From contig JAAETV010000156.1 in NCBI GenBank assembly GCA_024227975.1, positions 1 through 53,791 on the forward strand: 53,791 bases of DNA, given 5' to 3'. Of this stretch, positions 1,160 to 31,709 are shown piece by piece (the stretch's first letter is position 1; each line of letters begins with the position of its first letter). The notes below the pieces were generated by a model. The model was not told the DNA's origin, did no database searches, and worked only from the letters and a program-made list of their open reading frames with translations. Position numbers and translations under genes: made by a program. The DNA comes from Actinomycetes bacterium. Its GTDB lineage: Bacteria > Actinomycetota > Acidimicrobiia > Acidimicrobiales > SZUA-35.

Positions 1160-2235
1160 CAGCCGCTTCCTCGACCCCGGCCGAAGCCGACGATGGCGGA
1201 ATCGACGACCCCACCATGACCACGGCCGAGTCGAACGCCACGCCGGTGATCGAGGTCAACGATCTGGTGATGCACTTTCCCATCAAGAAGGGCCTGTTCC
1301 AGCGCACCGTCGGCCAGGTCCGGGCTGTCGACGGGATCAGCTTCACGGTGGAGAAGGGGACTACCCTGGCCCTGGTCGGTGAATCGGGTTGCGGCAAGAC
1401 CACAACCGGGCGCTGTGTGTTGCGGCTGCTGGAACCCACCGCCGGGACGGTTCGTTTCCAGGGGCAGGATCTGGCCGCGGTGTCGGTTTCGGAGCTGCGC
1501 TCATTGCGCCGGCGGATGCAGGTGATCTTCCAGGATCCCTACAGCTCGCTCGACCCGCGAATGTCGACCGCCGACATCGTTGGCGAAGGGCTCGAGATCC
1601 ACGACATCGCTTCGGGGGAAGCGAAGCTCGAACGGGTGGCCGACCTCCTCGAACAGGTCGGGCTCTCTCGCGACGATTTGCGCAAGTACCCCCATCAGTT
1701 CTCGGGCGGGCAGCGCCAGCGCATCGGTATCGCTCGGGCTCTAGCCACTGAGCCGGAGCTCATCATCTGCGATGAGGCGGTCTCGGCCCTCGACGTGTCG
1801 ATCCAGGCCCAGATCCTCAACCTGTTGATGGACCTTCAGGAACGCCTGCACCTCACCTTCCTGTTCATCACCCATGACCTGAATGTGGTTCGTTACATCT
1901 CCGATCGGGTGGCCGTGATGTACCTGGGGGAGGTGGTCGAGATGGCGGAAACCGAAGAGCTCTTCACCAGCCCGGTCCACCCCTACACCAAGGCCCTGCT
2001 CTCGGCCGTACCCAACGTTGACCCCGACGAGGCCCGCTCGGGCGATCGGATCCACCTCGAGGGAGATGTCCCCTCGCCGTCCAACCCACCGTCGGGCTGT
2101 CGATTCCACACCCGTTGTCCCAATGCCATTGACGAGTGCTCGGTGGTCGAGCCCGTCATCGAGGAGTTCCAGTCTGGCCACCTGGTCCGGGCTTGTCCCG
2201 AATCCACCCGATCCGCTCCTGGGGGCGGACGATGA
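1156..2235 (+). CDS. Peptide ABC importer ATPase, DppF/OppF type (system 1)
   Basis: Second ATPase of importer 1, pairing with the DppD-type subunit. The 359 residues carry Walker [11 protein letters not shown]-loop [13 protein letters not shown], signature [15 protein letters not shown], Walker [14 protein letters not shown] and H-loop ITHDLNVV, then the oligopeptide-type C-terminus with [12 protein letters not shown] and a four-cysteine cluster beginning CRFHTRC. In the Walker B region the usual DEP is DEA. The spacing from Q-loop to signature is the ordinary one, about 80 residues, which makes it the natural comparison for the enlarged homologue at 26748. An N-terminal extension of about 30 residues precedes the ATPase core. 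It overlaps both neighbours by 4 bp, implying translational coupling. Confidence 0.93.
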
Positions 2236-3182
2236 TCGAATACATCATTCGCCGGGTCCTATCTGGCATCCTCGTACTGTTCCTGTTGAGCACGGTGCTC
2301 TTCTTCGTCATGCGGCTGGTGCCGGGCGACGTCGTCCGCCTCCAATTGGCCGACGCCGGGTCGGTGACCCCAGAGCGCATGGCCGAGATCGAGGCACAAC
2401 TCGGACTCGACAAACCGGCCCTGTCTCAATACGGCACCTGGTTGAGTGGTGTGGTGCGAGGCGACCTCGGCGAATCGCTGTGGGAGCAGCGTCCGGTAGG
2501 CGAGATGATCCGCCAACGATTCCCCGTCACATTCGAGCTGGCTCTGTTGTCGATCGTGATAGCGGTGACGTTGGGGATCCTGGCCGGGGTCGGCTCCGCT
2601 ATCAAGCGGGGGTCGTCCGCCGACAATCTCCTGCGGGTCGGATCGGTGGTTGGTCTGTCGATCCCGAACTTCTTCCTGGCCTTGCTGATGATCACGGCCA
2701 TGTCGTTGTGGTTCAACTGGGTGGCCCCGCTCGGCTACCAGCGCCCAAACGAGAACCTGTGGGTGAACCTCCAACAGATGGCGATGCCATCCCTCGCCCT
2801 CGGCCTGGGGGTAGCAGCCGCCATCGCCCGCATGACCCGCTCCTCGATGCTCGAAGTCCTCGGCGCCGACTACATCAGGACGGTGCGGTCGAAGGGGGTC
2901 GGCGAGCCGAAGGTCAACTTCAAGCACGCCTTGCGCAACTCGATGGTGCCGATCATCACCCTGATCGGACTCCAGTTCGGTGCCCTGCTCGGTGGCACCG
3001 TGATCCTGGAGAGCATCTTCGGCCTTCCTGGGATCGGGAGCCTGGTGTTTCGGGCCGTTGAGCAAAGGGACTATCCGGTCATCCAGGCGGCCGGTGTCCT
3101 CTATGGCGGCATCTTCGTGTCCGTCAACATCGCGGTCGACATCACCTATGGCTGGATCGACCCCAGAATCCGTCGGAGCTGA
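2232..3182 (+). CDS. Peptide ABC importer permease, DppB/OppB type (system 1)
   Basis: Inner-membrane permease subunit. It begins with the standard first helix ([12 protein letters not shown], then a hydrophobic stretch), followed by the periplasmic segment with [11 protein letters not shown] and RGDLGESLW, and near the C-terminal half the EAA-type cytoplasmic loop ([16 protein letters not shown]). The protein ends in [12 protein letters not shown], typical of DppB. At 316 residues it has normal family length. ATG 2232 overlaps the preceding stop (ATGA) and agrees with the expected N-terminus; an open frame further upstream is non-homologous. It forms the translocation pore with the DppC-type gene 20 bp downstream. 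Confidence 0.93.
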
Positions 3183-3202
3183 ACCATGAACCGAGCCAGG
3201 AC

Positions 3203-4129
3203 ATGACCGCTCTCCACGGACCGCCCGAGATCGACACCGCAGGTCAGCCGGACGCCGTTCGTCCCGAAGACATCAAGAAGACAGCCTGGGGTCGCTTCGT
3301 TGTCAGCCTCAAGCACTTCATGAAGACCCAGCCCCTCGGTGTCTTGTCGGCGGTCGTCATCCTGATCCTGCTGATCTCTGCCATCTTCGCCCCGATCCTG
3401 GCCAATCATGACCCGTCGGAGCTGGGACGTACGTCCCAGCTCGACTCACCGTCGACCGAGCACTACTTCGGCACGGACGAGATCGGTCGGGACATCTTCA
3501 GCCGGGTGTTGTACGGATCGCGGATCTCCTTGATTGTCGCCACCTTCACCGTTGTCGTCTCCACCGTCTTGGGCACGGCCCTAGGGGCGGTTTCGGGCTA
3601 CTTCGAAGGCCGGATCGATATGGTGCTCCAACGGCTGGTCGATGCAGTCATGTCGATCCCGGTCCTGATTCTGGCCTTGTTCATCGTTGCTCTCCTCGGC
3701 GCCAGCGTCCGCAATGTCGTGATCGCCTTGGCCGTGATCTACACCCCCCGTTTCAGCCGCATCGCCCGGGGTGAGATGCTGAGGGTGAAGAACGCCGACT
3801 ATGTGGCCGCGGCTGAAGCTCTGGGGTCCAAACCGTGGCGCGTCATCCGCAAGCACGGCATCCCGAACATCGTGGCACCGATCATCATCCTGGCCAGCCT
3901 CACTTTCGGGCAGGCCATCGTGGCTGAGGCGGCCCTGAGCTTCCTCGGTGTTGGGGCGCCCATCACCGAACCGTCATGGGGCCAGATGCTGTCACGAGGC
4001 CGCGAATACACCCGGGTCGCGTGGTGGGTCGTTGTGTTTCCTGGCACGGCGCTCAGCCTCGGGGTACTCGCCTTCAACTTGCTGGGCGACTCCCTGCGGG
4101 ACCACCTCGATCCGAAACTCGTTCGCTAG
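3203..4129 (+). CDS. Peptide ABC importer permease, DppC/OppC type (system 1)
   Basis: Second pore-forming permease of importer 1. The 308-residue protein starts with a charged cytoplasmic tail, then a first membrane helix (LGVLSAVVILILLISAIF), the DppC signature HYFGTDEIGRDIFSRVLYG, several further helices, and the EAA-like loop RVKNADYVAAAEALGS. It ends with NLLGDSLRDHLDPKLV, as family members do. The gene follows dppB by 20 bp and precedes the binding-protein gene by 65 bp, which include a small hairpin (4135-4150). Confidence 0.93.
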   Translation: MTALHGPPEIDTAGQPDAVRPEDIKKTAWGRFVVSLKHFMKTQPLGVLSAVVILILLISAIFAPILANHDPSELGRTSQLDSPSTEHYFGTDEIGRDIFSRVLYGSRISLIVATFTVVVSTVLGTALGAVSGYFEGRIDMVLQRLVDAVMSIPVLILALFIVALLGASVRNVVIALAVIYTPRFSRIARGEMLRVKNADYVAAAEALGSKPWRVIRKHGIPNIVAPIIILASLTFGQAIVAEAALSFLGVGAPITEPSWGQMLSRGREYTRVAWWVVVFPGTALSLGVLAFNLLGDSLRDHLDPKLVR

Positions 4130-4134
4130 TAACT

Positions 4135-4150
4135 CCGGTAGTGATACCGG
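4135..4150 (+). terminator. Small hairpin between permease and binding-protein genes
   Basis: CCGGTA (4135-4140) and TACCGG (4145-4150) form a perfect 6-bp stem with a 4-nt loop directly after the dppC stop. There is no T run, so full termination is doubtful. A partial terminator or an mRNA processing or stability element that sets the binding-protein level apart from the transporter genes is more likely. Confidence 0.4.
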
Positions 4151-4194
4151 GCGGGCCGGGAATACTCGCTCCGCAGACAACAAGGGGGAATCCC

Positions 4195-5931
4195 ATGAAA
4201 GATCCGACCAGACGAGCGATGAGGTGGTTAGCCCTCATCGCCGCAATGCTGCTGGTGGTGGCTGGCTGTGGGGACAGTGACAGTACCGACGAAACCAGCG
4301 ACGCCACGGTGGAGGCCGAGGAGGAGGAGTCCTCGTTCGACGAGCAGGCCGAGGCCCAGCAACAAGGGGAGGACGAGGCTACGGCCGAGCAGGAGGAGGT
4401 GGCTGGCGATGGCGACCCGGTCCGTGGCGGCCACCTCGTCATCTCCGGCCCGTCCGACATCGGCAGCCTCGATCCGATCGCCTCGTCTTCGTTCAACACC
4501 CAGTACCGGATCGCTCACGTCTACCAGCGGATGCTGTCATTCGAGACCGGCCCCGATATTGGCTACACGCAGAACGTGCTCAAGCCGGAGTTGGCCACCG
4601 AGTGGGAGATCTCAGAGGACAACCTGACCTACACCTTCAAGTTGAGAGAGGGGGTGAAGTGGCACAATGTGGAGCCGGTCAACGGGCGCGAGTTCACCTC
4701 GGCCGACGTGAAAGCCACCTTCGATGGCATCCAAGCCGAAGGCCATCAGGCCAACCTGCTGGAGCGGGTGACCTCGATCGACACTCCTGATGACTACACC
4801 GTGGTGCTCAACCTGTCGGAGCCGTTTGCTCCTCTGCTCAATAATATGGCCAGCCACTTCATGTGGATCCTGCCGGCCGAAGCATTCGAGGAGGGCTACG
4901 AGCGGGCCTCGACCGTGATCGGAACTGGGCCGTTCGTCCTCACCGAACGCGAAGTCGACGTCGCCACTGAGTACGAGGCCAACCCCGACTACTGGGATGT
5001 TGGTGCCGACGGGGAACCGTTGCCTTATCTCGACAGCTTCGAGCAAGTCGTCATCAATGACACCCAGCAGGTGATCGCGGCCTTCCAGGCCGGTGAGATC
5101 CAGCTATTGACCAACGGTCTTCCGGTACCCCTGCTCGAACAGCTCAAGACGGACTACCCCGAGGCTTTCTACGGGGAGTGGATCGATGCTGGCATGGGCC
5201 AGATTGGGGTCAACATGGCCCGCGAGCCCTTCGACGACATCAGGGTCCGTCAGGCCATCAGCCTTGCCATCGACCGCGAGGGCATGGGTGAGAGCATTCG
5301 GGGTGGAGGCACAATCCCGTCCAACGTTGCTCCTGCTCAGTCTGATTACGCCCTTCCCGAGGAGGAGAGGGAGGAGCTATTGCCCTACGATCCAGAGCGG
5401 GCCAAAGAGCTGCTGGCGGAGGCAGGCTTTGCCGATGGACTCGACGCCACCCTGATAGCAACCGATCGTTACGGTGCCCTCTATACCTCCCAGACCGAGT
5501 GGGTGGTCGAGGACCTGGAGGCGATTGGTATCAATGTGGAGCTGGAGTTGCTCGACTACGCCACCTACTTCGGTAGCCGCTGGCCTGACATCGAGTACGA
5601 CCTCCAGTTCGGGCCTCAGACCCCGTTCCTCGAACCAGACGAATGGCTCCGGGGGCAGATGGGCACTGGCGGCGGTCGGAACTGGTACAACATCAGCGAC
5701 CCGGAACTCGATGCCCTGCTCGATGAGCAGCTCGGCCTCGTCGACCCTGACGAACGGGCGGACAAGATTCGCGAGATCCAGCGCTACGCCCTGGAGAACG
5801 TGATGAACCCGATCCCGGTTTGGACCTACCAGACCCGGTGGGCCTACGCCCCGGAGCTCACGAACTTCTTCCGCCACGCCTCCTACGGGTTCAACGGGCT
5901 CGAAGCAGCCTGGCTGGTGCCAGAGTCATAG
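4195..5931 (+). CDS. Peptide-binding lipoprotein, SBP family 5 (system 1)
   Basis: Extracytoplasmic substrate receptor of importer 1. ATG 4195 is preceded by a strong AAGGGGGA Shine-Dalgarno. The 578-residue protein has a lipoprotein signal: basic start, hydrophobic core and lipobox VVAGC with the acylated cysteine at about residue 25. A linker of about 45 residues rich in Glu, Asp and Gln then leads to the binding domain. That domain shows family 5 hallmarks such as LRPELA-like KPELATEWE, LREGVKWHN, SADVKATFD and late VRQAISLAIDRE. Unusually, the gene is last in its operon, after the ATPase and permease genes. The ligand cannot be read from the sequence. Confidence 0.92.
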   Translation: MKDPTRRAMRWLALIAAMLLVVAGCGDSDSTDETSDATVEAEEEESSFDEQAEAQQQGEDEATAEQEEVAGDGDPVRGGHLVISGPSDIGSLDPIASSSFNTQYRIAHVYQRMLSFETGPDIGYTQNVLKPELATEWEISEDNLTYTFKLREGVKWHNVEPVNGREFTSADVKATFDGIQAEGHQANLLERVTSIDTPDDYTVVLNLSEPFAPLLNNMASHFMWILPAEAFEEGYERASTVIGTGPFVLTEREVDVATEYEANPDYWDVGADGEPLPYLDSFEQVVINDTQQVIAAFQAGEIQLLTNGLPVPLLEQLKTDYPEAFYGEWIDAGMGQIGVNMAREPFDDIRVRQAISLAIDREGMGESIRGGGTIPSNVAPAQSDYALPEEEREELLPYDPERAKELLAEAGFADGLDATLIATDRYGALYTSQTEWVVEDLEAIGINVELELLDYATYFGSRWPDIEYDLQFGPQTPFLEPDEWLRGQMGTGGGRNWYNISDPELDALLDEQLGLVDPDERADKIREIQRYALENVMNPIPVWTYQTRWAYAPELTNFFRHASYGFNGLEAAWLVPES

Positions 5932-5960
5932 CGCCAGAGTCATAGAGCCATAGCGTCGCC

Positions 5961-6002
5961 ACCGGGAACGGAGCGCAACGATGACCTCGTTTCGTTCCCG
6001 GT
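5961..6002. terminator. Hairpin between convergent genes
   Basis: ACCGGGAACG (5961-5970) and CGTTCCCGGT (5993-6002) are perfect 10-bp inverted arms. A second short stem, AACGA/TCGTT, lies inside the loop. It sits between the stop of the binding-protein gene and the stop of the convergent glycosyltransferase gene, so it probably serves as a two-way terminator without a long T run. Confidence 0.6.
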
Positions 6003-6046
6003 TCGGCGCAGCATCCAGCATTGGGCGGTATTGATCAACGCCGCCC

Positions 6047-8641
6047 TCAGCTGATGCGACTGGTCGTCTGGTCCGCTTTGGTCGAGCCCGCCTCGCCGGG
6101 TACCGGATCGGTTGAGCGTCGATCGTGGGGGGTGGACCGTTTGGCCCTTTCATCGGCTTCGGCTTCTGATCCGATTGCTCCAGCCGAAAACTTGGTCGCG
6201 AAACTCGCCAGTGAGTCGACGACTGTCAATGGCTCACCGCTCGTTGCACGGAGCTCAGCGACTTCGGGTGCCTCGTCGTCGACCGCAAGTGCGCCGGCTA
6301 CGGCCAGTGCTTCGGCGTCGGCTTCGGCATCGACGGAGGGGCCACTGGAACGTGGTGTCACCTTCCACTGCCGGTCGCGCATGACCTCCTTGATGTGGGC
6401 AGTTCGGGACACCACATTCTTGATCTCGGTATAGAACACGAGGGAACTGATGAGGAGGAGCCAGAACCATCGTCGGTGCTGGCCGATCGACTCATGCGAT
6501 AGGCGCCAGCCGTACCAGACCTGGACCGGCCCCGCCATGAAGGTCGCCAAGCTGGTGATGACGAAGATGGGGACGAACCAGTCAATGACGCCATCGTTGC
6601 GAATCCACCAGTACGCCAGCAGAGGGAGCATCTGTAGCGAGATCCATGGATAGAGCTCCCGCCACCCCAGTAGATAGGCCATCCCGAAGCGCTGTCGAGC
6701 ATTGGGCGCCGCTCCCATCGCCGCGGCGATATGACGCAACGACACCTGTGACCAGCCTTGAGCCCACCGCAGGCGCTGGTTCCACAAGGCGCTCGCCGAC
6801 TCCGGAGCGAGCTCGGTCGACACCAGATCACGATCGGAGACGATGGTCTCCCCCGACTGGAGGACCCGCATCGTCGAGTCGATGTCCTCAGTAAGCATGA
6901 ACCCACGCATCCGGGTCGATTGCAGCAACGACGTCCGCCAGTAGCCGTTCGATCCTCCGAAGACCCCGAAACCATGAAGTCGGGCTCGGCCCGGATGGCT
7001 CACGGCATAGATCACCTCGAACTCAGCGGCTACGAGCCGGGTGACGAAGTTGGTCTCGCCGTTGCGGATCACACAGTGCCCTTGGACTACGCCGACCCCG
7101 GAATTGATCCATCTCCACGCCCTTTCGAACGAGCCTGGAGCTGGATGATGGTCAGCGTCGAATACTCCGACGAATTCGCCTCTCACCCGGCTGACGGCGG
7201 CGTTCACGTTCTGTGCCTTCGATACCGAGCCCTCCACCCGGATCGGTTCGAAGCGTGGGTCCCGAATCGCAATCGCTTCGATCTCCTGCTCGACGTCGAG
7301 GGGCTGTGGGGTGTTGTAGGCCAGGATGATCTGGAGGTTCGGATAGTCCTGGGTCAGGAATGCCTCGATCGTTTCGATGATCGTGTCGGCCTCGTTCGGG
7401 AGGTAGGCCGCGATCACGGCCGAAGCCAGGGGTGGTTCGACGTCAGGCGCAAGGGGTGGTTCGGGGCTCTCCTTGGCGGCGTTGCTCTCGGCGGCCACTG
7501 CGGCCGACGTCACCAACAAGGCGAACAGAACCACGAGATACATGACCTGAGTGACGTCGACTCCGGCCGCTCCGAGGGCCAGGTAGACCATGAACGGGGC
7601 CCCCAGGAGCAAGGTCTGCTGCAATGTGACCTGGATTGGGGTCCGGATCCGATCGAGTGATCGCATGAATCGTGACCGGGTCGGGGACGGCTCCGACATC
7701 GCCACCTTCCATCGGGTGGGATGAAGGTCACGCTGTTCGGCCTGGACCGACAAGGCAGCCCACGCTCGGCTGGCGAGGTCGTCGGCAGTGACATCGGGGA
7801 TCGATTCGGTGTAGCCGATGATGGGTGTGATCTGGACTTCGTCACCGCCGAGGGTGAACGGGTGCCGGTAGATCAGCTTGGAGAGACGGTCGAGGCGGAT
7901 CTGTGCCCCTTGTCGTCCCGTGCCCGGCATGAGCAGGCCAACTACTCCCATGGAGAAGCCGACGAAATCAAGGGTCCGGCTGTCCTCCTTTATGAGATGC
8001 ACGACCTGGCTCACGATCTCGTCCCGGGCTCGTGAGCCGTACTCGGTTTCGAGCTCGGGAAGCTCTTCCAGCGCCAGGAATCCAAGGGCGCCCTGACGCC
8101 CTCCCCGGTGAACCCGCTCCAGCTCCCGATCGACCTGTTCGGAGAAGGCCGCCTGGGTCAAGGCCCCGGTTATGGGATCCTCCAGAAGCTCCTGGCGTGG
8201 GAGTGGGCGCCGCTCCATACGGACCCGGAGCCGGGCAGTGAGCTCAGCGGGATGGGGCCTTCCGGCGATGACGTCATCGGCACGGCGGCCGAACGCTTCG
8301 ACCACAAACTGGTGCCGCCGTCGTGGCGGATTGCACACGATAGGGACGCGGTCCCCGTCGGGCTCCTTCCGGAGGCGATCCAGAAGGCCGAGCTCAGCCA
8401 TTGCTGTCCCCTGGAAGGCCAGCAGCACGAGGTCGGGTGGGGCCTCGCGAAAGAGGCTGACGGCATGGTCGTCGTCATTGGCCATCAGAGCCAGCCAGCC
8501 GGCGGCTTCTACTATCGCTGCCAGTTCTGAGCCCCGGTCGGGATCAGTCGAGGCAATCAGGATCGTGGTCTGACGGGCGCCAATCGAAGCCGCCAACCTG
8601 TCGTCATCACCGACGACGGCATCGATAGGTGAAGAGGCCAT
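6047..8641 (-). CDS. Pseudo-receiver / pseudo-GGDEF / family 2 glycosyltransferase fusion
   Basis: A membrane glycosyltransferase, probably a processive polysaccharide synthase, with two dead signalling domains at its N-terminus. Residues about 25-145 read as a response-regulator receiver, but the phosphoacceptor Asp is replaced (PDLVLLAFQG, Ala at about 75). Residues about 150-315 align to a GGDEF domain from DPITGALTQAAF to ITPIIGYTES; the active-site GGDEF position reads SMGVV, so cyclase activity is not expected. Two helices (about 342-380) precede a GT2 domain with FDADHHP (about 494-500), TEDID (584-588) and QRLRW (622-626), then further helices to about 740 and a low-complexity Ala/Asp/Glu tail. 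ATG 8641 is chosen; a longer frame would overlap the divergent gene at 8728. Product unknown. Confidence 0.85.
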   Translation of the reverse strand: MASSPIDAVVGDDDRLAASIGARQTTILIASTDPDRGSELAAIVEAAGWLALMANDDDHAVSLFREAPPDLVLLAFQGTAMAELGLLDRLRKEPDGDRVPIVCNPPRRRHQFVVEAFGRRADDVIAGRPHPAELTARLRVRMERRPLPRQELLEDPITGALTQAAFSEQVDRELERVHRGGRQGALGFLALEELPELETEYGSRARDEIVSQVVHLIKEDSRTLDFVGFSMGVVGLLMPGTGRQGAQIRLDRLSKLIYRHPFTLGGDEVQITPIIGYTESIPDVTADDLASRAWAALSVQAEQRDLHPTRWKVAMSEPSPTRSRFMRSLDRIRTPIQVTLQQTLLLGAPFMVYLALGAAGVDVTQVMYLVVLFALLVTSAAVAAESNAAKESPEPPLAPDVEPPLASAVIAAYLPNEADTIIETIEAFLTQDYPNLQIILAYNTPQPLDVEQEIEAIAIRDPRFEPIRVEGSVSKAQNVNAAVSRVRGEFVGVFDADHHPAPGSFERAWRWINSGVGVVQGHCVIRNGETNFVTRLVAAEFEVIYAVSHPGRARLHGFGVFGGSNGYWRTSLLQSTRMRGFMLTEDIDSTMRVLQSGETIVSDRDLVSTELAPESASALWNQRLRWAQGWSQVSLRHIAAAMGAAPNARQRFGMAYLLGWRELYPWISLQMLPLLAYWWIRNDGVIDWFVPIFVITSLATFMAGPVQVWYGWRLSHESIGQHRRWFWLLLISSLVFYTEIKNVVSRTAHIKEVMRDRQWKVTPRSSGPSVDAEADAEALAVAGALAVDDEAPEVAELRATSGEPLTVVDSLASFATKFSAGAIGSEAEADERAKRSTPHDRRSTDPVPGEAGSTKADQTTSRIS

Positions 8642-20495: not shown

Positions 20496-21260
<765 letters not shown>

Positions 21261-21333
21261 CCGTTTCTGTCGGCAACGGCTTGATGGCCCTACCAGAACA
21301 GTATGTCTCTCTGGCACTAGGTGGCGACCCGTC

Positions 21334-22587
21334 ATGCGTGGGACCCTGGCCTCGATGGGATCAGGAATCGATTCAGCGCGGGCATGGAAGGTTGCGGTGG
21401 CGGCCGCCGTCACCAATGGGGTGGCCTTCGGCACCGTTTACACCTTCGGTACCTTTTTCGAGGCCATGGCTTCGGAATTCGGGACGGGGCTGGGGCCGAC
21501 GTCGGTGGTGTTCAGCATCACCCTGTTCCTGTTCCTGGGCACTGGGGCTGCTTCGGGATTCCTGGCCGACCGCTATGGGCCCCGTCCCCTCGTCTGGGTG
21601 GGGGGGCTCCTGTTCAGCGGAGGATTGTTCCTCACCAGTCAGGTCGACCAGTTGTGGCACGGCTACCTGACCTATGGGGTCGGGGCCGGTCTCGGTGGGG
21701 GGCTGTTCGTTTCGCCCTTGTTCGCCGCGGTCGCCGGTTGGTTTGATCGGTACCGGGCCATAGGGCAGGGGGTAGCGGCCACCGGCAATGGGCTAGGAAC
21801 GCTGATCCTGCTACCCCTGGCCAACCGGCTCATCGAAACCGACGGCTGGCGCCACGCCTACGTCACCCTGGCCGTGATCTCTGCCGTCACCTTCGCCATC
21901 GGTGGCCTCCTTCTTGATCGCCCGCCCATCGAGCGACCGCCTCGAGCGGGCCGCCACCTGAGGGCCGTTTTGGCAACGACCAGCTTTCGACGTCTGGCCA
22001 TCGGTGGCGCCCTGGCCACAGCCGGCCAGAGCTCAGCGTTTGCCTTCACCGTGTTGTTCGCCACTGACGCCGGGGTGTCGTCGGCCCGGGCCGCACTCCT
22101 GATTGGGATCGTTGGCGCTTCCAGCATCATTGGCCGGCTCCTCCTGACGGGGCTGTCGGATCGGGTCGGTTCGGTCCGGATGCTGCAAGCGTGCCTGTTG
22201 GTCCAACCCCTGGCCTTTGTCTTGCTAGCCATCGCCGGGGCCAACTACACGGTGTTGGTGGCCTATGCCGTCCTCCTGGGCCTGGGCTATGGGGGCTTCG
22301 TGGCCCTCATTGGTCAGGTGTCGGCCCACCTTTTCGGTGTTCGAGGCCTGGGAGTGGTGTTGGGCTGGGTCTACCTGTCGGCTGCTGTTGGGAGCTTGCT
22401 CTACCCGCCTGTGGTCGGATTCCTAGCCGACGCCACCTCGACAGGAGACGTCTCGACCAGCATCGTCCCCAAACTCGCTATTGCTGGGGTCTCCTTTGTC
22501 GGGTCGCTCTACCTGCTCCGCCTCAGTCCTGATCCGGTGCCGACCGAGACCTTGGAAGCCACCCTCGAGCCGGCAGCCGTGGACTGA
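21334..22587 (+). CDS. MFS transporter, paralogue of the 10243 carrier
   Basis: A 417-residue membrane carrier with about 12 helices. The N-terminus VTNGVAFGTVYTFGTFFEAM and the loop ADRYGPRPLVWVGG line up with the first MFS gene of the window (INTWTFGVFYSFGAAFEQM and GDRYGAKPLVAFGG), as do GWRHAYVTLAV and GYGGFVALIGQVSAHLFGVRG. Both are therefore members of one monocarboxylate/oxalate-formate-like subfamily. ATG 21334 is preferred, with ATG 21355 possible. It is divergent from pcm and stands upstream of importer operon 2 without overlapping it. Confidence 0.88.
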   Translation: MRGTLASMGSGIDSARAWKVAVAAAVTNGVAFGTVYTFGTFFEAMASEFGTGLGPTSVVFSITLFLFLGTGAASGFLADRYGPRPLVWVGGLLFSGGLFLTSQVDQLWHGYLTYGVGAGLGGGLFVSPLFAAVAGWFDRYRAIGQGVAATGNGLGTLILLPLANRLIETDGWRHAYVTLAVISAVTFAIGGLLLDRPPIERPPRAGRHLRAVLATTSFRRLAIGGALATAGQSSAFAFTVLFATDAGVSSARAALLIGIVGASSIIGRLLLTGLSDRVGSVRMLQACLLVQPLAFVLLAIAGANYTVLVAYAVLLGLGYGGFVALIGQVSAHLFGVRGLGVVLGWVYLSAAVGSLLYPPVVGFLADATSTGDVSTSIVPKLAIAGVSFVGSLYLLRLSPDPVPTETLEATLEPAAVD

Positions 22588-22713
22588 ACGTCACCCCTTC
22601 CGCCCCCGCCACCGTGCCAATGCCACAACGATTGTGACGGATGTCGCATCAAAACTTGCGCTGCCGGGTACTGACTGCAACCGTAGGCCCAGATCAACAT
22701 GGGGGAGGTTCTC

Positions 22714-24594
22714 TTGACTGCGCGACTGAGCAAGTTAATGGCGATTCTATTCGCCTTGGCCCTAGTAGCCGCTGCCTGCGGTAGTGGCTCCGACGAGGAA
22801 GAATCCGAGGGCGCGACGGCGGCCGAAGATGACGAGCAACAGCAGGTCGAAACGGACAGGGCCGAAGGCGACGCCAGTGGTGAGGACACCGCGGAGGACA
22901 CCGGCGAGGCGGTCCATGGCGGCAAGCTCATCTACGGGATCGAGGCTGATTCGGCCAATCCCTGGACCCACTATGCGACCTCCTGTGCCATCAGCTGTCG
23001 CATGATCTTCAGGGCTGTCACCGACAGCCTGTTCACCACCGACGAAACTACCGAGTTCGTTCCATACCTGGTGTCGTCGGTCGAGACCAACGAGGACTCG
23101 ACAGAGTGGACCATGACCATCCGTGACGGGATCATATTCCACGACGGGACTCCGCTCGACGGAGCGGCGGTCAAATACAACCTCGACACCTGCCGGTTCA
23201 GTCCGCTGACCGGTCCCGCCTTCCTCGGCTTGAACGATGTGACAGCCGATGGGCAAACGGTCACCATGACCTATGCCGACCCCTCCGCCTTGGGCCCCAT
23301 GGTTCTGCGGACCGAGGTCTGTGGGATGATGTTCTCACCGACCTGGATGCAGACCCTTCCCAACAATCCGCTCCTCAGCGAGGAAGAGGCCGCGGCCGCC
23401 ACTGGCAACCCGGCGGAGCCCGTCGGGCTGGGGGCGTTCAAGTTCGTGTCGTACACCCCCGGCAACGGCAACAGCTTCATCGCCGAGCGCAATGAGGACT
23501 ACTGGCGAGGTGACGGCCCCAACTCTGTTACCAACGAAGGGCTTCCCTACCTCGACGAGGTGGAGTTCGTGGTTGCGGTCGACATCCAGGGCCGGTCGAA
23601 CGGTCTCAAGTCTGGGCAGTTCGACATCATCCATACGGCGAACGCCGACGAGATAGCCAAGTTCGAGGGCAACGACGAGTTCAAGCTGCTCCAGGCCAAT
23701 GACTTCGGTGCCACCAGCCATTACTTGGTCAACAGCGCTCAGGGTGAGAACCCGACGCTGGCCTTCGTGCGTGGTGTCGACAATGTGGTCATGGATCCCG
23801 GCGGCCTCAATGCCGCCAACCCGATGATCCACCTGAGCTGTCGCCGGGCTTTCGCTCATGCCATCGACCGTCAAAGAGTGGCCGATGAGCGGGGTGCCGG
23901 CATCGTTACCCCCGCCAACGGTCCCTTCCCACCGGGATCGATTGGCTACCTGGAAGACTCGGGCTATCCCGACTTCGACCTCGAGGCAGCGGCGGCCGAG
24001 TTCGAGACCTGCAAGACCGAGCACGGAGCGGTCCCGGTCGAATTCACCTTCAATACCACCAACGATGCGTTCAACGTCGAGACCAACGAACTAGTGGCCT
24101 CCATGTGGGCCGATGCCTTCGGTGATGAGGTCAACGTCACCATCGCCCCGATCGAGCAGGGCCAATACATCGGCCTTGCCCTCGCTGGTGTCTTCCAGGT
24201 GCAGAGCTGGCGCAACCATGCCGGCGTCGATCCAACAGAACAGTGGTACTGGTGGAATTCGGCAACGGCCAGCCCGATCGATCCCGAGGTACCAGAGTTG
24301 GCCCTGAACTTCGGCCGGTTCCAGGATGCGGCCATGGATGCGGAGTTCACCACCATCCGTCAGAGCACTGATCCCGCGGCCCGCAAGGCGGCGGCGGAAG
24401 AGGTCAACCGGCTCTTCGGTGAGAATGTGTGGAACTTCTGGACGACCTGGACCTTGTGGGGCATCGTGGCCAATCCTCGGGTCCAGAACATCACCAATAT
24501 GGAGATCCCCGATCAGACGACGTCGTTCCCCGTGATCGCCGGAAAGCACCACCTGACCCAGGTCTGGTGTACGGAGGGCGACTGCCAGGGCTGA
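22714..24594 (+). CDS. Peptide-binding lipoprotein, SBP family 5 (system 2)
   Basis: Substrate receptor of the second importer, 626 residues. TTG 22714 is chosen because GGGGGAGG (22701-22708) stands five bases before it; ATG 22699 overlaps that ribosome site. The protein starts MTARLSKLMAILFALALVAA with the lipobox cysteine at residue 22, then an acidic Glu/Asp linker, then the binding domain with AVKYNLDTCRF, GAFKFVSYTPGN and CRRAFAHAIDRQRVAD. It contains several extra cysteines (for example SCAISCRM), more than its counterpart at 4195. It is the first gene of operon 2, separated from the permeases by a strong hairpin. Confidence 0.92.
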   Translation: MTARLSKLMAILFALALVAAACGSGSDEEESEGATAAEDDEQQQVETDRAEGDASGEDTAEDTGEAVHGGKLIYGIEADSANPWTHYATSCAISCRMIFRAVTDSLFTTDETTEFVPYLVSSVETNEDSTEWTMTIRDGIIFHDGTPLDGAAVKYNLDTCRFSPLTGPAFLGLNDVTADGQTVTMTYADPSALGPMVLRTEVCGMMFSPTWMQTLPNNPLLSEEEAAAATGNPAEPVGLGAFKFVSYTPGNGNSFIAERNEDYWRGDGPNSVTNEGLPYLDEVEFVVAVDIQGRSNGLKSGQFDIIHTANADEIAKFEGNDEFKLLQANDFGATSHYLVNSAQGENPTLAFVRGVDNVVMDPGGLNAANPMIHLSCRRAFAHAIDRQRVADERGAGIVTPANGPFPPGSIGYLEDSGYPDFDLEAAAAEFETCKTEHGAVPVEFTFNTTNDAFNVETNELVASMWADAFGDEVNVTIAPIEQGQYIGLALAGVFQVQSWRNHAGVDPTEQWYWWNSATASPIDPEVPELALNFGRFQDAAMDAEFTTIRQSTDPAARKAAAEEVNRLFGENVWNFWTTWTLWGIVANPRVQNITNMEIPDQTTSFPVIAGKHHLTQVWCTEGDCQG

Positions 24595-24688: not shown

Positions 24689-25834
24689 GTGCGTACGCTG
24701 AGACAACGGCCTGGTCCGTTCGCAGTGCTCGCCATCCTCGTCGTCATCATCTGGGCCTGGTTTGCCCGGCCGCCCGTGAGCTGGACCTTCGGTTTGGTCA
24801 TAGCGATCGGCACGACAGCCGCTTTCCTCACCAACGGACGCTACGCACTACGACGGATTCTGGGAATCATCCCCATCCTGATCGTCGTCTCGTTCATCGT
24901 GTTCACGCTGATGGCCACCCTGCCCGGTGACCCAGCCATCAACATCCTCGGCCCTTCGGCCACTCCCGATGCGGTAGCCAGAATCAACGCCGAGCTGGGC
25001 CTCGACCAGCCCTTCTTCAACCGATACGGCGACTGGGTCGGCGATGCTGTGGTGGGGGACCTCGGCGACTCGATCGTGCGGCGCCAGGCAGTGGCTGATG
25101 GGATCTCACAGGCCATCACCCCGTCGCTGCAGCTGATGTTCTACTCGCTGGTCTTGGCCACCGCCATCTCGTTCCCCCTCGGGGTGTACACCGCCTATCG
25201 CAACGGCCAGCGTCAGGACCGGATCATCAACACCGTGATGCTCGGTTTCTTCGCCATCCCGCCCTTCGTGCTGGCCATCTTCTTCGTGCTGTTCTTCTCC
25301 ATTGGGGGCCTCAGCGTCTTCGGCACCAATATCGGGTTCAAGATCCTGCCCGCGGCCCGCTATGTACCCTTGGGGGAGAGCATCCCGGATCACTTCAAGC
25401 ACATGGTCTTGCCCGCCTTTTCGTTGGCCCTGGGTGTATCAGCGGTGTTCATGCGGCTTCTGCGGGCCGACATGATCGGCACCCTGCGCCTCCCCTTCAT
25501 CGACCTGGCCCGCTCCAAAGGGCTCTCGACGAGCCGGATTCTGTGGCGTCACGCCCTACGCCCATCGACGTTCACCCTGTTGACGGTCATGGGCTTCACC
25601 ACCGGGGCCCTCATCGGGGGAGCACTGATCACCGAGGTGATCTTCACCCTTCCCGGTATCGGGGGCTACATGTTCGGTGCCATCGGTCAGCGGGATTTCA
25701 TCGCCGTTCAAGGCGGGACCCTGGTCATCGCCACCCTCTACATCGTGATCCTGGTGATGGTCGACTTCTTGTACCTCGCAATCGATCCACGGCTGAGATC
25801 GGGTGGAAGTGGACTCGGAGGTGATGGGGGCTGA
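24689..25834 (+). CDS. Peptide ABC importer permease, DppB type with N-terminal extension (system 2)
   Basis: Pore subunit of importer 2, 381 residues against 316 for the system 1 protein. The usual N-terminus (RRILGIIPILIVVSFIVFTL) begins only at about residue 53. Before it are two additional hydrophobic segments (about 12-26 and 31-47), which would form an extra membrane hairpin. The remainder is regular: LGLDQPFFNRYGDWV, VGDLGDSIV, the EAA-like loop FIDLARSKGLSTSRI, and a C-terminus MVDFLYLAIDPRLR. The GTG at 24689 has GAAAGGA 11 bases upstream. The stop overlaps the following ATG. Confidence 0.9.
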   Translation: MRTLRQRPGPFAVLAILVVIIWAWFARPPVSWTFGLVIAIGTTAAFLTNGRYALRRILGIIPILIVVSFIVFTLMATLPGDPAINILGPSATPDAVARINAELGLDQPFFNRYGDWVGDAVVGDLGDSIVRRQAVADGISQAITPSLQLMFYSLVLATAISFPLGVYTAYRNGQRQDRIINTVMLGFFAIPPFVLAIFFVLFFSIGGLSVFGTNIGFKILPAARYVPLGESIPDHFKHMVLPAFSLALGVSAVFMRLLRADMIGTLRLPFIDLARSKGLSTSRILWRHALRPSTFTLLTVMGFTTGALIGGALITEVIFTLPGIGGYMFGAIGQRDFIAVQGGTLVIATLYIVILVMVDFLYLAIDPRLRSGGSGLGGDGG

Positions 25835-26748
25835 TGTCTGATATCGGAAGTACCGCTCTCCACCACGATTCTGGTGGGTCACTTGCCCCCACCCCCGAGC
25901 CCGGTGAGGGGGTTCGTAGTCGAGGTCCTCTTGGCTTCATGTTCTGGATCGCCGTGATCTTCCTCGTGGTCTTGACCCTGTCGGCCATCTTCGCCGAGGT
26001 GCTGCCGCTCAAAGGACCGGCTGAGACCTTCAAGGGTCGCAACCGAGAAGGGCCGAGCCTCGACCATTGGTTCGGTGTCGACGGTGGCGGTCGAGACATC
26101 TTCAGTCGGGTCATCTATGGCGGCCAGGTCAGCCTGATCATTGCCTCGGTTGGGGCCACCCTGGCCCTGCTCATCGGGGGCATGGTCGGTATGGCCGCTG
26201 GCTACTACCGGCGTCGGGTTGACACCGTCATCACTTCCTTCACCGACGGGACCCTCGTCATCCCGCCCCTCATCCTGGCCTTGTCCCTGATCCTGTTCCT
26301 CGACCCCACCGCCGAACGCCGAGTGTCCATCCTGATCTTCGTGTTCGTGCTGTTGTCGATCGCTCCCATTGCTCGGGTAGTCAGGGCCTCGACCCTTGTC
26401 TGGTCTGAGCGTGAGTTCGTGCTGGCGGCAAGGACCATTGGAGCCCGCAATGGGAGGGTGATGTTTCGAGAAGTGCTGCCAAACGTGGCCCCTGCCCTGG
26501 TCAGCTACTCATTGATCATCATGGCCAACCTGATCGTGGTTGAGGGGGCGGTCGCATTCCTCGGCCTCTCGGTTCCACCACCGACACCAACCTGGGGAGA
26601 CATGATCAACAAAGGCCGAGGTGATCTCGATGTCGCAGCTCACATCAGCCTTATTCCGGCCATGACCATGTTCCTCACCGTGCTCGCCCTCAACTTTGTT
26701 GGTGACAAGCTCCAAGAACGTTACGAGCCGAGAGAGTCGGTGCTCTGA
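25834..26748 (+). CDS. Peptide ABC importer permease, DppC/OppC type (system 2)
   Basis: Second pore subunit of importer 2, 304 residues. A cytoplasmic tail rich in Pro/Gly precedes the first helix (FMFWIAVIFLVVLTLSAIF). The DppC signature is present as HWFGVDGGGRDIFSRVIYGG, and the EAA-like loop as REFVLAARTIGARNGRVM. The end, ALNFVGDKLQERYEP, is standard. Unlike its partner permease it shows no additional segment. It overlaps both the upstream permease and the downstream ATPase by one to four bases. Confidence 0.92.
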   Translation: MSDIGSTALHHDSGGSLAPTPEPGEGVRSRGPLGFMFWIAVIFLVVLTLSAIFAEVLPLKGPAETFKGRNREGPSLDHWFGVDGGGRDIFSRVIYGGQVSLIIASVGATLALLIGGMVGMAAGYYRRRVDTVITSFTDGTLVIPPLILALSLILFLDPTAERRVSILIFVFVLLSIAPIARVVRASTLVWSEREFVLAARTIGARNGRVMFREVLPNVAPALVSYSLIIMANLIVVEGAVAFLGLSVPPPTPTWGDMINKGRGDLDVAAHISLIPAMTMFLTVLALNFVGDKLQERYEPRESVL

Positions 26749-28430
26749 TGGCGGGTACCGGGAAGGCTCACCTCCGACAGGCTGAGGACACCCTGCTACG
26801 GGCCGAAGATCTGACCGTTGAGTTTCCGGTGGGGACGACGGGCGACGTCGTTCACGCTGTCAGTGGGATATCCATCGACCTGGTCGAGGGGGAGACCCTT
26901 GGTCTGGTGGGAGAGTCGGGGTGTGGGAAGTCGACGACGGGCAAGGCCATCATGCAGGTCCCCCAGCCGACCTCGGGCTCGGTCGTCTTGGACCAGACAG
27001 AGCTGACCAGCCTCGACGATGAGTCGATGCGACGGACTCGGCCTGTGCTCCAGATGATCTTCCAGGATCCGATCTCGGCCTTGAACCCCCGTCGGACTGT
27101 GCGCGACATCATCGGTGAGCCACTGATGGTGTGGTGGGAAGAGGAAGACGGTCGTCCCCCGACCTCGATCTGGTTCGAACAGTTCGGCCAGCTCTTCCAG
27201 AAGGTGGCCGGGTTCATCACCAAGCCTCTGCGCTACCTGGTGCCCCTCGGCGGGCTAGCCATGGTGTTGTGGATCGTCAGCGAGGCGGCCGAGGAGCGTC
27301 GTTTCGAGGACCAGTTGGGCTGGACCCAGGTACCGGCCCAGATCATCGGCTTCCCCGTTCTGGCTATTGCCATCGTCATTGTGACCATCCTGTTGATGAT
27401 GGGAGTGGTATGGCTGACACTGGCCGTGATCGTGCCCTTCGGGGTTGTATCGAAGGTCCTAGGACAGGTCTCGACGGCGGCCGGATTGGCGGCCGCCGCC
27501 TTCGCCTTCGCCGTCTCGGTCTTCATGGTGTGGCGGACCTGGAATAGTTTCGTTGGAACACCGGTGATGATCCTGCGAGCGGTGATGATCCTGGTGGCCG
27601 CCGTCGTTGGAGCCTGGTTCGTTGCCTCCTTGGTGCAGCCGAGCCGGGCCGGTGCGTCTGGTATTGCCGCCGCCCTGGTAGCCATCTTCGGACTCGAGTT
27701 GTTCTATATCTCCGGCCTCGACGGGGTTCCGAAGCTTCTGGTGCTGATTGCCTCGGCGGCCGTGGACTTCGGCCTCTTCTGGTTGGTGCGACGCCAGCTG
27801 GCTGTTCGTCATGAGGAGTTGCAGGAGCGGGCCGAGCCCAGGGTGCGCGAGATGCTGGAGACGGTCGGCATCAACCCCGACAACGCCCTCGACCGAAAGC
27901 CCTTCGAGTTCTCTGGCGGTCAGGCTCAACGCTTGTCGATTGCCCGAGCCCTCATCATGAATCCCAAGGTGATCATCTGCGACGAGCCCGTCTCCGCCCT
28001 CGACGTGTCGGTTCAGGCTCAGATCCTCAACCTGTTGGAGGACATGAAGGAACGGTACGGCCTGACCCTTGTCTTCATCGCTCACGACCTGGCCGTGGTC
28101 AAGAATGTCAGCGATCGGGTGGCCGTCATGTACCTGGGGAAGATCTGCGAGGTAGCCGACCCCGACGTGCTCTACGCCTCGCCCGCTCACCCCTACTCCC
28201 AGCTCCTGCTGGCGGCCATCCCCCACCCAGATCCTCTCATCAAGGCTCGCGCCATGGAGGGGGCAGCCGATCTGCCATCGCCCATCAACCCGCCGAGCGG
28301 GTGCCGCTTCCGTACCCGGTGCGCCCTGGCCCAGGACCGTTGTGCTGAGGAGGAACCGAGCATACGACAGGTGGCCGAGGACCAGTATGTGGCCTGCCAC
28401 TTCCCCCTTGTCGGAGAGGTTGCCCCGTGA
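26748..28430 (+). CDS. DppF/OppF-type ATPase with an inserted multi-helix membrane domain (system 2)
   Basis: ATPase of importer 2, 560 residues instead of the usual 330-360. Residues 1-126 are an ordinary N-terminal half: Walker A GESGCGKST (55-63), Q-loop MIFQDPISALNP (Gln 106) and TVRDIIGEPLMVWW. Residues about 127-358 are an insertion with hydrophobic segments near 161-178, 197-219, 221-237, 243-262, 273-296, 303-320 and 328-347. Homology resumes at REMLETVGINPDN, with signature FSGGQAQRLSIARAL (388-402), Walker B VIICDEPVSALDVS (Glu 413), His 446 and the four-cysteine C-terminus. Both ATPase halves must be cytoplasmic, so an even number of crossings is needed; segments 2-7 as six helices, with the first interfacial, fits best. 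The frame is unbroken. Confidence 0.9.
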   Translation: MAGTGKAHLRQAEDTLLRAEDLTVEFPVGTTGDVVHAVSGISIDLVEGETLGLVGESGCGKSTTGKAIMQVPQPTSGSVVLDQTELTSLDDESMRRTRPVLQMIFQDPISALNPRRTVRDIIGEPLMVWWEEEDGRPPTSIWFEQFGQLFQKVAGFITKPLRYLVPLGGLAMVLWIVSEAAEERRFEDQLGWTQVPAQIIGFPVLAIAIVIVTILLMMGVVWLTLAVIVPFGVVSKVLGQVSTAAGLAAAAFAFAVSVFMVWRTWNSFVGTPVMILRAVMILVAAVVGAWFVASLVQPSRAGASGIAAALVAIFGLELFYISGLDGVPKLLVLIASAAVDFGLFWLVRRQLAVRHEELQERAEPRVREMLETVGINPDNALDRKPFEFSGGQAQRLSIARALIMNPKVIICDEPVSALDVSVQAQILNLLEDMKERYGLTLVFIAHDLAVVKNVSDRVAVMYLGKICEVADPDVLYASPAHPYSQLLLAAIPHPDPLIKARAMEGAADLPSPINPPSGCRFRTRCALAQDRCAEEEPSIRQVAEDQYVACHFPLVGEVAP

Positions 28431-29542
28431 GCGACGACTCGGCCTCGCCCCCCTCGGCGAGCCCTCTCATGGGCCAACCCGAGCCATCCGATGAGACGAT
28501 CCTCGAGGTGAGGAACCTCACCACCGAATTCGCAACGCCGGCGGGTCCTCTGACTGCGGTCGACGACGTCTCGTTTTCACTGCGACGGGGCAAAGCCCTC
28601 GGCCTGGTCGGTGAATCTGGTTCGGGGAAGAGTGTGACGGCCCGATCGGTCATGCGCCTCCTGCCCAAGACCAATGTGTTGACCAGCGGCGAGGTGACGA
28701 TCAACGGGATCGACATGATGGGCTTGTCGGCCCGGGAGCTGCGTGACATCTGGGGTCCTGAGGTGGCCATGGTGTTCCAGGATCCGCTTGGTTCGCTCAA
28801 CCCGGTCATGAAGATCGGCCAGCAGGTGGCCGAAGGGTTGCGGGTTCACCACAATGCTTCGAAGCGGGAGGCCAGGGCCAGTGCCTTGAGCCTGCTTCAT
28901 AGTGTTGGGATCCCCTCGCCCGAGACCAGGATCGATGAGTACCCTCATCAGCTGTCGGGTGGTATGCGACAACGGGTCGTGATCGCCATTGCCCTGGCCT
29001 GCGGGCCCAAGCTCCTGATCGCCGACGAACCGACGACGGCACTGGATGTGACCGTCCAGGCCCAGATCCTCGATCTGTTGCAGGACCAGCAGCGGGAGCG
29101 GTTCATGCCCCTGGTTCTCATCACCCACGATCTTGGCGTTGTCGCCGGTCGGACCGACGAGGTGATCGTGATGTACGCGGGGCGGATCATGGAACGGGCC
29201 TCGACCTCGATCCTGTTCCGCGACATGAAGATGCCCTATACCGAGGCCCTGTTCCGCTCGATCCCCAAGGTCGAGTATCCGAGCCACACCCGGCTGGCCA
29301 TCATCCCCGGGCGGCCCCCGAACATGGTCGATCCGCCGGTTGGCTGCAAATTCGCGGCCCGTTGCCGCTACGCCCAGGTTCGCTGTTTCGAGGAGGAGCC
29401 GGAGCTGACGCCGGCTGTCGACCAGGATCACGTCTACCGCTGCTTCTACCCGGTGGGCAGTCCCGAAGGCACCGAGGCACTGGAGTCGAATATCGCCAGC
29501 GGCCGTCTCAACCCCGAAGGTGAGCTCGTCGGTCTGTCCTAG
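28427..29542 (+). CDS. Peptide ABC importer ATPase, DppD/OppD type (system 2)
   Basis: Partner ATPase of importer 2, 371 residues, of ordinary architecture. A disordered N-terminal tail of about 20 residues precedes the core, which has Walker [11 protein letters not shown]-loop [13 protein letters not shown], signature [15 protein letters not shown], Walker [17 protein letters not shown] and H-loop [15 protein letters not shown]. The C-terminal extension has [12 protein letters not shown] and a four-cysteine cluster beginning CKFAARC. GTG 28427 overlaps the preceding stop by 4 bp. It lacks any membrane insertion, so only one of the two ATPases in this transporter is altered. Confidence 0.93.
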
Positions 29543-30616: not shown

Positions 30617-31709
30617 TCATCCAGTTCGGCTGCGCTTGTTGTGGGCGTTGTGGATGATGGCAGTCGTGATCCACGACAGATCAGTGAGGCGGCCACCGTC
30701 GATTGGTTCGAGTGTCGTGAACTCGCTGACCTTCTGACGGGTGTGCCAGTAGAGACGGTTGACACTCCCGCTGGAGTGCTCGACGGTGGCTGGTTCCGCG
30801 GCCGGTGTCCTGAACAGGAAGCCACCCTCGTGGGGTTCGACGCTCCAACGACTGGGGGAGTGGCCGCCGTCGTGGATCACCTGGTGGTGGAAGGAACAGA
30901 GAAGGATCAGGTTGCCCAGCTCCGTCGGCCCCCCGTGGAGCCAGTGGACGACATGATGGGCGTGAAGCCCTCGGGTTGTCGCACAGCCCGGGAACTGGCA
31001 CATGCCGTTTTCTCTCAGTTCGAGTGCTGTGCGTATCCGCTTGGGTACCACCCTTGACTCCCGCCCGATGGAGAGCGGCTTTCCACTGTCGTCGGTGAGG
31101 GCCAGGTTCACTCGGCAGTCACAGGCCAACCGCTCCACAACCGACCTACGCTTGTCGCCGACCGGGCTCGCCGGCACCGCGGCCACCACCACCACCACCA
31201 CCACCACCACCACCACCGCTGCTGCCATCGCCACCGTTGTCATCTCGGTTGCGATTCACAGACCCGATTGAGTTGGGCCGCGGTCGACGCACGGGCAATA
31301 TCCAACAGGTCTGACTCGGAGCCGATCGTTGCCGCCCGGGTGATAGCCCGTGCCTTCGAGTACGACAGTGCTCCATCGGCAACTCAGCCCGGATCAGTGG
31401 CAGGTGCTCCAGAGCCCGGGCCACTCGGACTTGCTCCCTGGCCGCCGGGAAGGACATGCCGTACTTCCAGTTCAGCCAGTGGGCGGCTGACCGGCACTCC
31501 CACACTCGCCACCCCTTCCGGCGATCGTAGGCGGCCAACCACTCGAGCCAACGGGCTTCGCCCGCAGCCAGATGGGGCGCCATCGAAACCAGCTCCATCT
31601 CGAGCCGCTCCAGTGGAACCTCGTCCACGGGAATCTCCCCTACCACTGCGATCTCTACCCCGAGAACATTGGCGTCGGCATTGGGGGCGCCGCTGCCTGC
31701 ATCGGCCAA
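30617..31709 (-). pseudogene. Broken DUF222/HNH endonuclease-family gene
   Basis: Three pieces of one gene lie in three reading frames. The start (ATG 31709) gives the DUF222 N-terminus, with ARWLEWLAAYDRRKGW and SAAHWLNWKYGMSFPAARE. Near 31390 one base appears lost: shifting frame there restores the expected ADGALSYSKARAITRAAT and AAQLNRV, which then meets a TGA near 31240. The C-terminal piece (30617-31243) has a normal HNH domain with CQFPGCATTRGLHAHHVVHW and LCSFHHQVIHDGG. A (CCA)n run covers the join, and the middle of the family is missing. The HNH fragment could still be translated alone, but a decayed gene of the mycobacterial 13E12-like family is more likely. Confidence 0.8.
31183..31217. 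repeat. CCA/TGG trinucleotide repeat
   Basis: About eleven uninterrupted CCA units (TGG on the other strand) lie in the middle of the broken DUF222/HNH gene. In one minus-strand frame it reads as poly-valine and in another as poly-glycine. It is the longest pure triplet run noticed in the window and sits exactly at the frame change. Confidence 0.85.

Follow-up and report, generated by a model that had tools for sequence, protein, structure and literature searches.

A predicted membrane domain nested in one ATPase of a peptide-family ABC importer from Acidimicrobiia

ATP-binding cassette (ABC) importers have separate motors, which dock on the membrane subunits through coupling helices. The locus described here raises the question of whether one of these motors can itself be a membrane protein. 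It lies in a stretch of 53,791 nucleotides (hereafter, the window; contig JAAETV010000156.1, assembly GCA_024227975.1, Actinomycetes bacterium), in which positions 26748–28430 form an uninterrupted frame of 560 codons encoding an ATPase, F. A preliminary description of the window claimed that a hydrophobic domain interrupts this ABC ATPase at residues 127–358, and our comparisons confirmed this. The Pfam ABC_tran domain (PF00005) was split into two stretches on F, with oligo_HPY (PF08352, E = 1.1e-13) at the C-terminus; the NCBIfam OppF/DppF models also matched in two stretches, the better of which covered residues 359/360–551; and seven hydrophobicity peaks were found in the insert. Of the coordinates first given for the insert (27126..27822), the start was correct and the end was one base too far. 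Our best reading, to which we assign a probability of roughly 0.6, is that the insert is an accessory membrane domain that tethers F, through its helical subdomain, to the two permeases, holds it there permanently, and originated in two steps. The features of the gene are as follows.

26748..28430, + strand: ATPase F, 560 amino acids, OppF/DppF type with a predicted nested membrane domain (open frame, Pfam, NCBIfam)
27126..27821, + strand: nested domain, residues 127–358, with a soluble lead, an amphipathic helix (approximately 138–158), and six proposed crossings
27129..27461, + strand: portion homologous to the two-segment insert of short relatives, residues 128–238 (hhalign E = 1.6e-10)
27462..27821, + strand: last four segments, residues 239–358, missing from the short class
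28302..28397, + strand: four-cysteine site C519-C525-C532-C550, spacing 6/7/18, the cysteines nearly invariant in the family

Outside the insert, F has the parts of an ordinary motor. Residues G55–S62, Q106, S389–Q392, D412–E413, and H446, which we take to be the Walker A motif, Q-loop, signature, Walker B motif, and H-loop, respectively, were invariant or nearly so in the family alignment (A1), and the cassette fold agreed with that of solved OppF/DppF structures. F departs from these proteins in length, since they usually have about 330–360 amino acids and no membrane segments. It also scored below the curated NCBIfam values (350.6 of 540 bits for OppF, 329.6 of 408 for PRK11308, and 273.8 of 660 for DppF), and to judge from its sequence, it is of the wider OppF/DppF kind rather than a member of those named models. 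Another peptide-type system lies at the beginning of the window, and its F homologue (1156–2235, 359 amino acids) lacks an insert and is ordinary, as the preliminary description stated.

Such a frame might be an assembly chimera, a frameshift fusion, or a pseudogene. A database search with the insert alone (residues 126–372), which the preliminary description had proposed, speaks against a chimera: among 7997 scored candidates, 62 proteins matched, the weakest with an E-value of 7.4e-32. They shared 40–75% identity and were mostly 533–582 amino acids long, and those source names that bore an organism were Acidimicrobiales or Actinomycetota. The insert comprised exactly 232 residues between identical borders in 51 of the 63 aligned rows (window included) and 218–249 residues in the other 12. 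The ratio of nonsynonymous to synonymous substitution rates (dN/dS) in both insert halves ranged from 0.04 to 0.43 in the ten computable pairs of 11 locus pairs (in the remaining pair, the inserts did not differ), and that of the cassette ranged from 0.03 to 0.30 and was once 0. Because dN/dS was below 1 in the insert wherever it was computable, the insert is, on this sequence evidence, a constrained part of the protein. The gene order C-F-D was constant in 14 of 14 loci, with genes for the substrate-binding protein (SBP) and permease B ahead in 13. Moreover, the longest contig recorded for a six-segment protein and for a two-segment protein (a class introduced below) was 5,414,946 bp in each case, presumably one contig of a single, nearly complete genome. 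The preliminary description had named homologues lacking the insertion as evidence against it; these were found as paralogues and deeper relatives only, not as the same gene without the insert. Only single odd members recall an artefact, namely P0062 and P0063, whose inserts look partly garbled and were excluded from the insert profiles and the charge count (and, with P0055, from alignment A3). We therefore regard an artefactual origin as refuted by the matches, the constant length, the purifying selection, and the gene order.

A scan of species genomes for the six-segment insert, built on two peptide patterns, returned 54 stretches and 14 confirmed loci, all in actinobacterial metagenome-assembled genomes. 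Thirteen of these were titled within Acidimicrobiia (Acidimicrobiia, Acidimicrobiales, Acidimicrobiaceae, or Microthrixaceae) and one as actinobacterium (L003), the genome of which (G003) belongs to the same family as G002. The insert was matched in 4 of 39 genomes of one family and in 12 of 39 of another (one a fragment, E = 3.6e-9). Among 395 genomes drawn evenly across the class, with at most seven candidates scored per genome, the only match was G002, and G002 was also the only one of 396 genomes drawn evenly across the phylum (at most 11 candidates each) to match the profile of the shorter insert described below. No stand-alone relative of the insert was found among eight hits.

How the insert lies relative to the membrane was considered from hydrophobicity and charge. 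The 19-residue Kyte–Doolittle peaks above 1.2 were located at residues 163–181, 199–217, 220–238, 243–261, 278–296, 306–324, and 329–347, and they coincided in the window protein and the family average, save 243–261 (244–262 in the family). Residues 189–235 of the window protein contain no charged residue. Conserved loop residues were E179, E182, R184, E187, W192, D325, and K329, and conserved charged and aromatic residues were concentrated in the proposed outer loop 178–198. From the positions of the Q-loop and SGGQ, the insert appears to sit in the helical subdomain, where it takes the place of a short loop joining the two halves of the cassette. Six crossings, with both ends of the insert inside, fit better than seven, in agreement with the two-segment form and with the loop charge bias, which was counted in 57 of the 63 rows (P0030, P0044, P0046, P0055, P0062, and P0063 were left out). 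The uncharged run 189–235 would then be one crossing, because both cassette halves must share one side, as in the two-segment relatives. The location in the helical subdomain and the six crossings, both already proposed in the preliminary description, are thus supported as predictions, and we infer that the six-helix block is inserted into the membrane. A hydrophobic yet soluble insert, packed as a helical bundle on the cytoplasmic side, would suit the fold comparison of the insert, which listed mainly soluble helical bundles with weak scores; with no charge in 189–235, seven hydrophobicity peaks, and a biased loop charge, such a bundle is very improbable. Inspection of the sequence also led us to reject an intein. 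Inteins begin with Cys or Ser and end with His-Asn as splice residues, and the borders of the insert have neither.

The relatives of F fell into three classes. The distance from Walker A to SGGQ was 334 residues in the six-segment class versus 109 in 47 insertless loci, which gives a net insertion of 225 amino acids. In a third class, first met in G002 (L015, protein P0069, 455 amino acids) and then in 28 database proteins, it was 216–227. Three of the 28 were dropped as fragments from the short-class alignment A4 (P0078, P0088, and P0090). In these proteins, the insert was 120–131 residues long in all 21 rows measured and consisted of one clear hydrophobic segment and one long run without charge. 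The pooled profile of the short inserts aligned to residues 128–238 of the window protein with a score of 67.3, compared with at most 30.1 for 50 column shuffles, 20.4 for the reversed profile, and at most 22.6 for permeases and a major facilitator superfamily (MFS) protein. By profile comparison, the two-segment insert is thus homologous to the first hairpin of the six-segment insert. No internal repeat of this hairpin was detected within residues 239–358. Genomes bearing an insert also carried close insertless relatives, and all three classes (zero, two, and six segments) were present in G002. At L016:2778-16007, an insertless importer operon (D-F-SBP-B-C) directly adjoins a six-segment operon on a single contig, and L102 holds insertless F and D genes plus a two-segment operon.

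A maximum-likelihood tree of the cassette core, constructed after removal of the insert from 99 of the 103 chosen rows (the cut point was not found in the other four), placed the insertless proteins at the base, followed by the two-segment proteins and then the six-segment proteins as one clade (98/90). The two- and six-segment proteins jointly formed one clade (98/95), and the segment-class labels required three changes on this tree, the minimum possible. It seems, on this topology, that the hairpin came first and the four further segments later, each gained once; loss instead of gain would be less simple.

What the domain does can be approached through its operon, in which the binding protein, both permeases, and the second ATPase are all present in the order SBP-B-C-F-D.

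22699..24594, + strand: substrate-binding protein (SBP_bac_5), 631 amino acids, first gene of the operon (PF00496, E = 5.9e-53)
24689..25834, + strand: permease B, 381 amino acids (PF00528 and PF19300, the latter beginning at residue 51)
Within 24689..25834, + strand: N-terminal extension of permease B, residues 1–50, with extra hydrophobic segments at 8–26 and 30–48
25834..26748, + strand: permease C, 304 amino acids (PF00528, E = 1.5e-21)
28427..29542, + strand: ATPase D, 371 amino acids, ordinary and without an insert (PF00005 over 46–204, PF08352)

The SBP gene was similarly placed in 13 of the 14 loci (L005 ends before it, and the L003 copy is divided between two frames). Complete six-segment operons had the order SBP-B-C-F-D, and fully read insertless ones had D-F-SBP-B-C or SBP-B-C-D-F. 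When 34 B permeases were compared, with start codons taken from the longest frames (L005 ends before B, and L115 yielded no B), an extension of at least 50 N-terminal residues with at least two hydrophobic segments was present in all 15 six-segment operons and in three of the four two-segment ones, giving 18 of 19 insert-bearing operons. None of the 15 insertless operons had it; there, B had no more than nine additional residues and lacked any segment of this kind. Two permeases (L002:7361-8710 and L004:7394-8683) have four extra N-terminal hydrophobic segments, provided that the longest start holds.

The locus would represent a peptide/nickel-family importer with two motor subunits, of which F would be a membrane protein in its own right. 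Its six-helix domain would occupy the loop of the helical subdomain that runs from the Q-loop side to the helix before SGGQ. Around this insert the cassette would fold normally, and it should remain able to dock on permease C through the coupling helix; the membrane domain would lie beside the permease pair, probably packed against the extra N-terminal hairpin of B. Its likely job would be to keep F on the permease at all times and to connect the moving helical subdomain with the permease a second time, within the membrane; a two-helix hairpin would have come first and four more helices later. The contact of the insert with B and C, the docking, and any effect on assembly or coupling are parts that we infer. 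The preliminary description had also proposed an accessory membrane domain contacting the permeases: the domain itself is conserved and predicted as such, and the contact is indicated only through the B extension, which may reflect a single evolutionary event. A study of the E. coli importer DppBCDF reports that DppF pairs with DppC and that the rotation of the helical subdomain between states is about 20 degrees (PMC12136057). A tentative extension, possible but doubtful, is a second transmission path besides the coupling helix, in which the long helix 330–372 would pass the subdomain turn at ATP binding into the membrane and onto the enlarged B. The two half-sites would then be mechanically different, because only one of the two motors carries the domain.

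The domain might instead be a pure membrane anchor, which merely keeps F from leaving the permease and has no part in the cycle or its regulation. The reported dissociation of E. coli DppBCDF upon cysteine changes or oxidation of its [4Fe-4S] clusters (PMC12136057) suits this view, as does the two-segment form, which could anchor equally well. However, an increase from two to six segments is more than an anchor requires, as is the strict conservation of the loop residues E179, E182, R184, E187, W192, D325, and K329, and the four-cysteine site has been retained too, so we consider a pure anchor unlikely. Less likely still is a sensor or recruitment domain, whose outer loops would gate the ATPase in response to a lipid, the docked binding protein, or some other membrane protein, much as is known for the TMD0 domains of some exporters. 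The grouping of conserved charged and aromatic residues in the outer loop 178–198 would fit a sensor, as would the operons at L006–L014 (about 1579–7580), which have two tandem binding-protein genes, or three in L013; however, no ligand site was recognised, and the fold searches gave no result.

Several observations weigh against an accessory domain that links F to the permeases and arose in two steps. The loop 262–277, predicted to lie outside, carries a net positive charge; the AlphaFold2 confidence was low in the N-terminal cassette half of F; and in most locus pairs, evolution was faster in the insert than in the cassette. Short inserts of the P0093 type matched the six-segment profile weakly on their own (score 34.8, probability 64, compared with 30.1 as the highest shuffle score of the pooled profile), and the L067 insert, from the L104 fusion protein, matched the short class (45.9) and not the six-segment profile (16.6). 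In the core tree, the two-segment group was not monophyletic: P0093-type members joined the six-segment clade with 95/74 support, and L067 stood on a very long branch beside this join. As for permease B, the two-segment F-D fusion of L104 has a diverged short insert and a B without the extension, and therefore the extension is not required for an insert as such. The extended B proteins also grouped in a single clade (99/97), and of the 15 from six-segment operons, nine (L006–L014) were nearly identical, indicating few events; the B tree left the order of three two-segment operons unsettled. The fusion itself (L104:8916-11342 in G011) is a single frame of 808 amino acids.

Elsewhere in the window, two overlapping frames on the − strand at 30617–31709, presumably of the HNH type, jointly resemble one protein broken around simple repeats (poly-Val/poly-Gly), and a − strand frame at 20496–21434, which we take to be methyltransferase-like, terminates in an Asp-Ala repeat.

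A polytopic motor whose living relatives have zero, two, or six segments would illustrate the stepwise threading of a membrane domain into a conserved enzyme fold and would allow one to test, in a natural system, whether the helical subdomain needs the freedom to turn. The insert also clearly marks a distinct type of importer in uncultured Acidimicrobiia.

Among known systems, large domains are inserted in the cassettes of UvrA and Rad50/SMC, which are neither transporters nor membrane domains. The TMD0 of the exporters SUR1 and TAP is an accessory membrane domain on an ABC transporter, but it is N-terminal to the core membrane domain and not inside the nucleotide-binding domain. ABC-F proteins such as EttA likewise have an extra domain between the two halves of a cassette; in the available text on MtbEttA, NBD1 covers residues 2–93 and 137–240, with the arm at 94–136 inside the cassette (PMC8782954). 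The EttA arm differs in having about 43 residues and touching the ribosomal L1 stalk, and EttA has two tandem cassettes and acts on the ribosome. We rejected ABC-F membership for F, which has a single cassette and adjacent permease genes. A further close comparison is with E. coli DppF/OppF (PDB 8z1v-8z1y_D and 8z21_D), with chains of 333–334 amino acids and a short loop where F has its 225 extra residues. The C519/C525/C532/C550 site of F (6/7/18) resembles the [4Fe-4S] site 293/299/306/323 (6/7/17) of E. coli DppF, and DppB has six helices, in the available text of PMC12136057. That text describes OppABCD/DppABCD systems of actinobacteria whose single D chain contains two cassettes, resembling the F-D fusion of L104, and does not mention membrane helices in the ATPase. 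No description of a membrane domain nested in an ATPase was found in the titles and abstract openings listed by our literature searches. The importer kind, a peptide-family ABC system, is thus known, as are cassettes with inserted domains; the ATPase-nested membrane architecture appears to be new.
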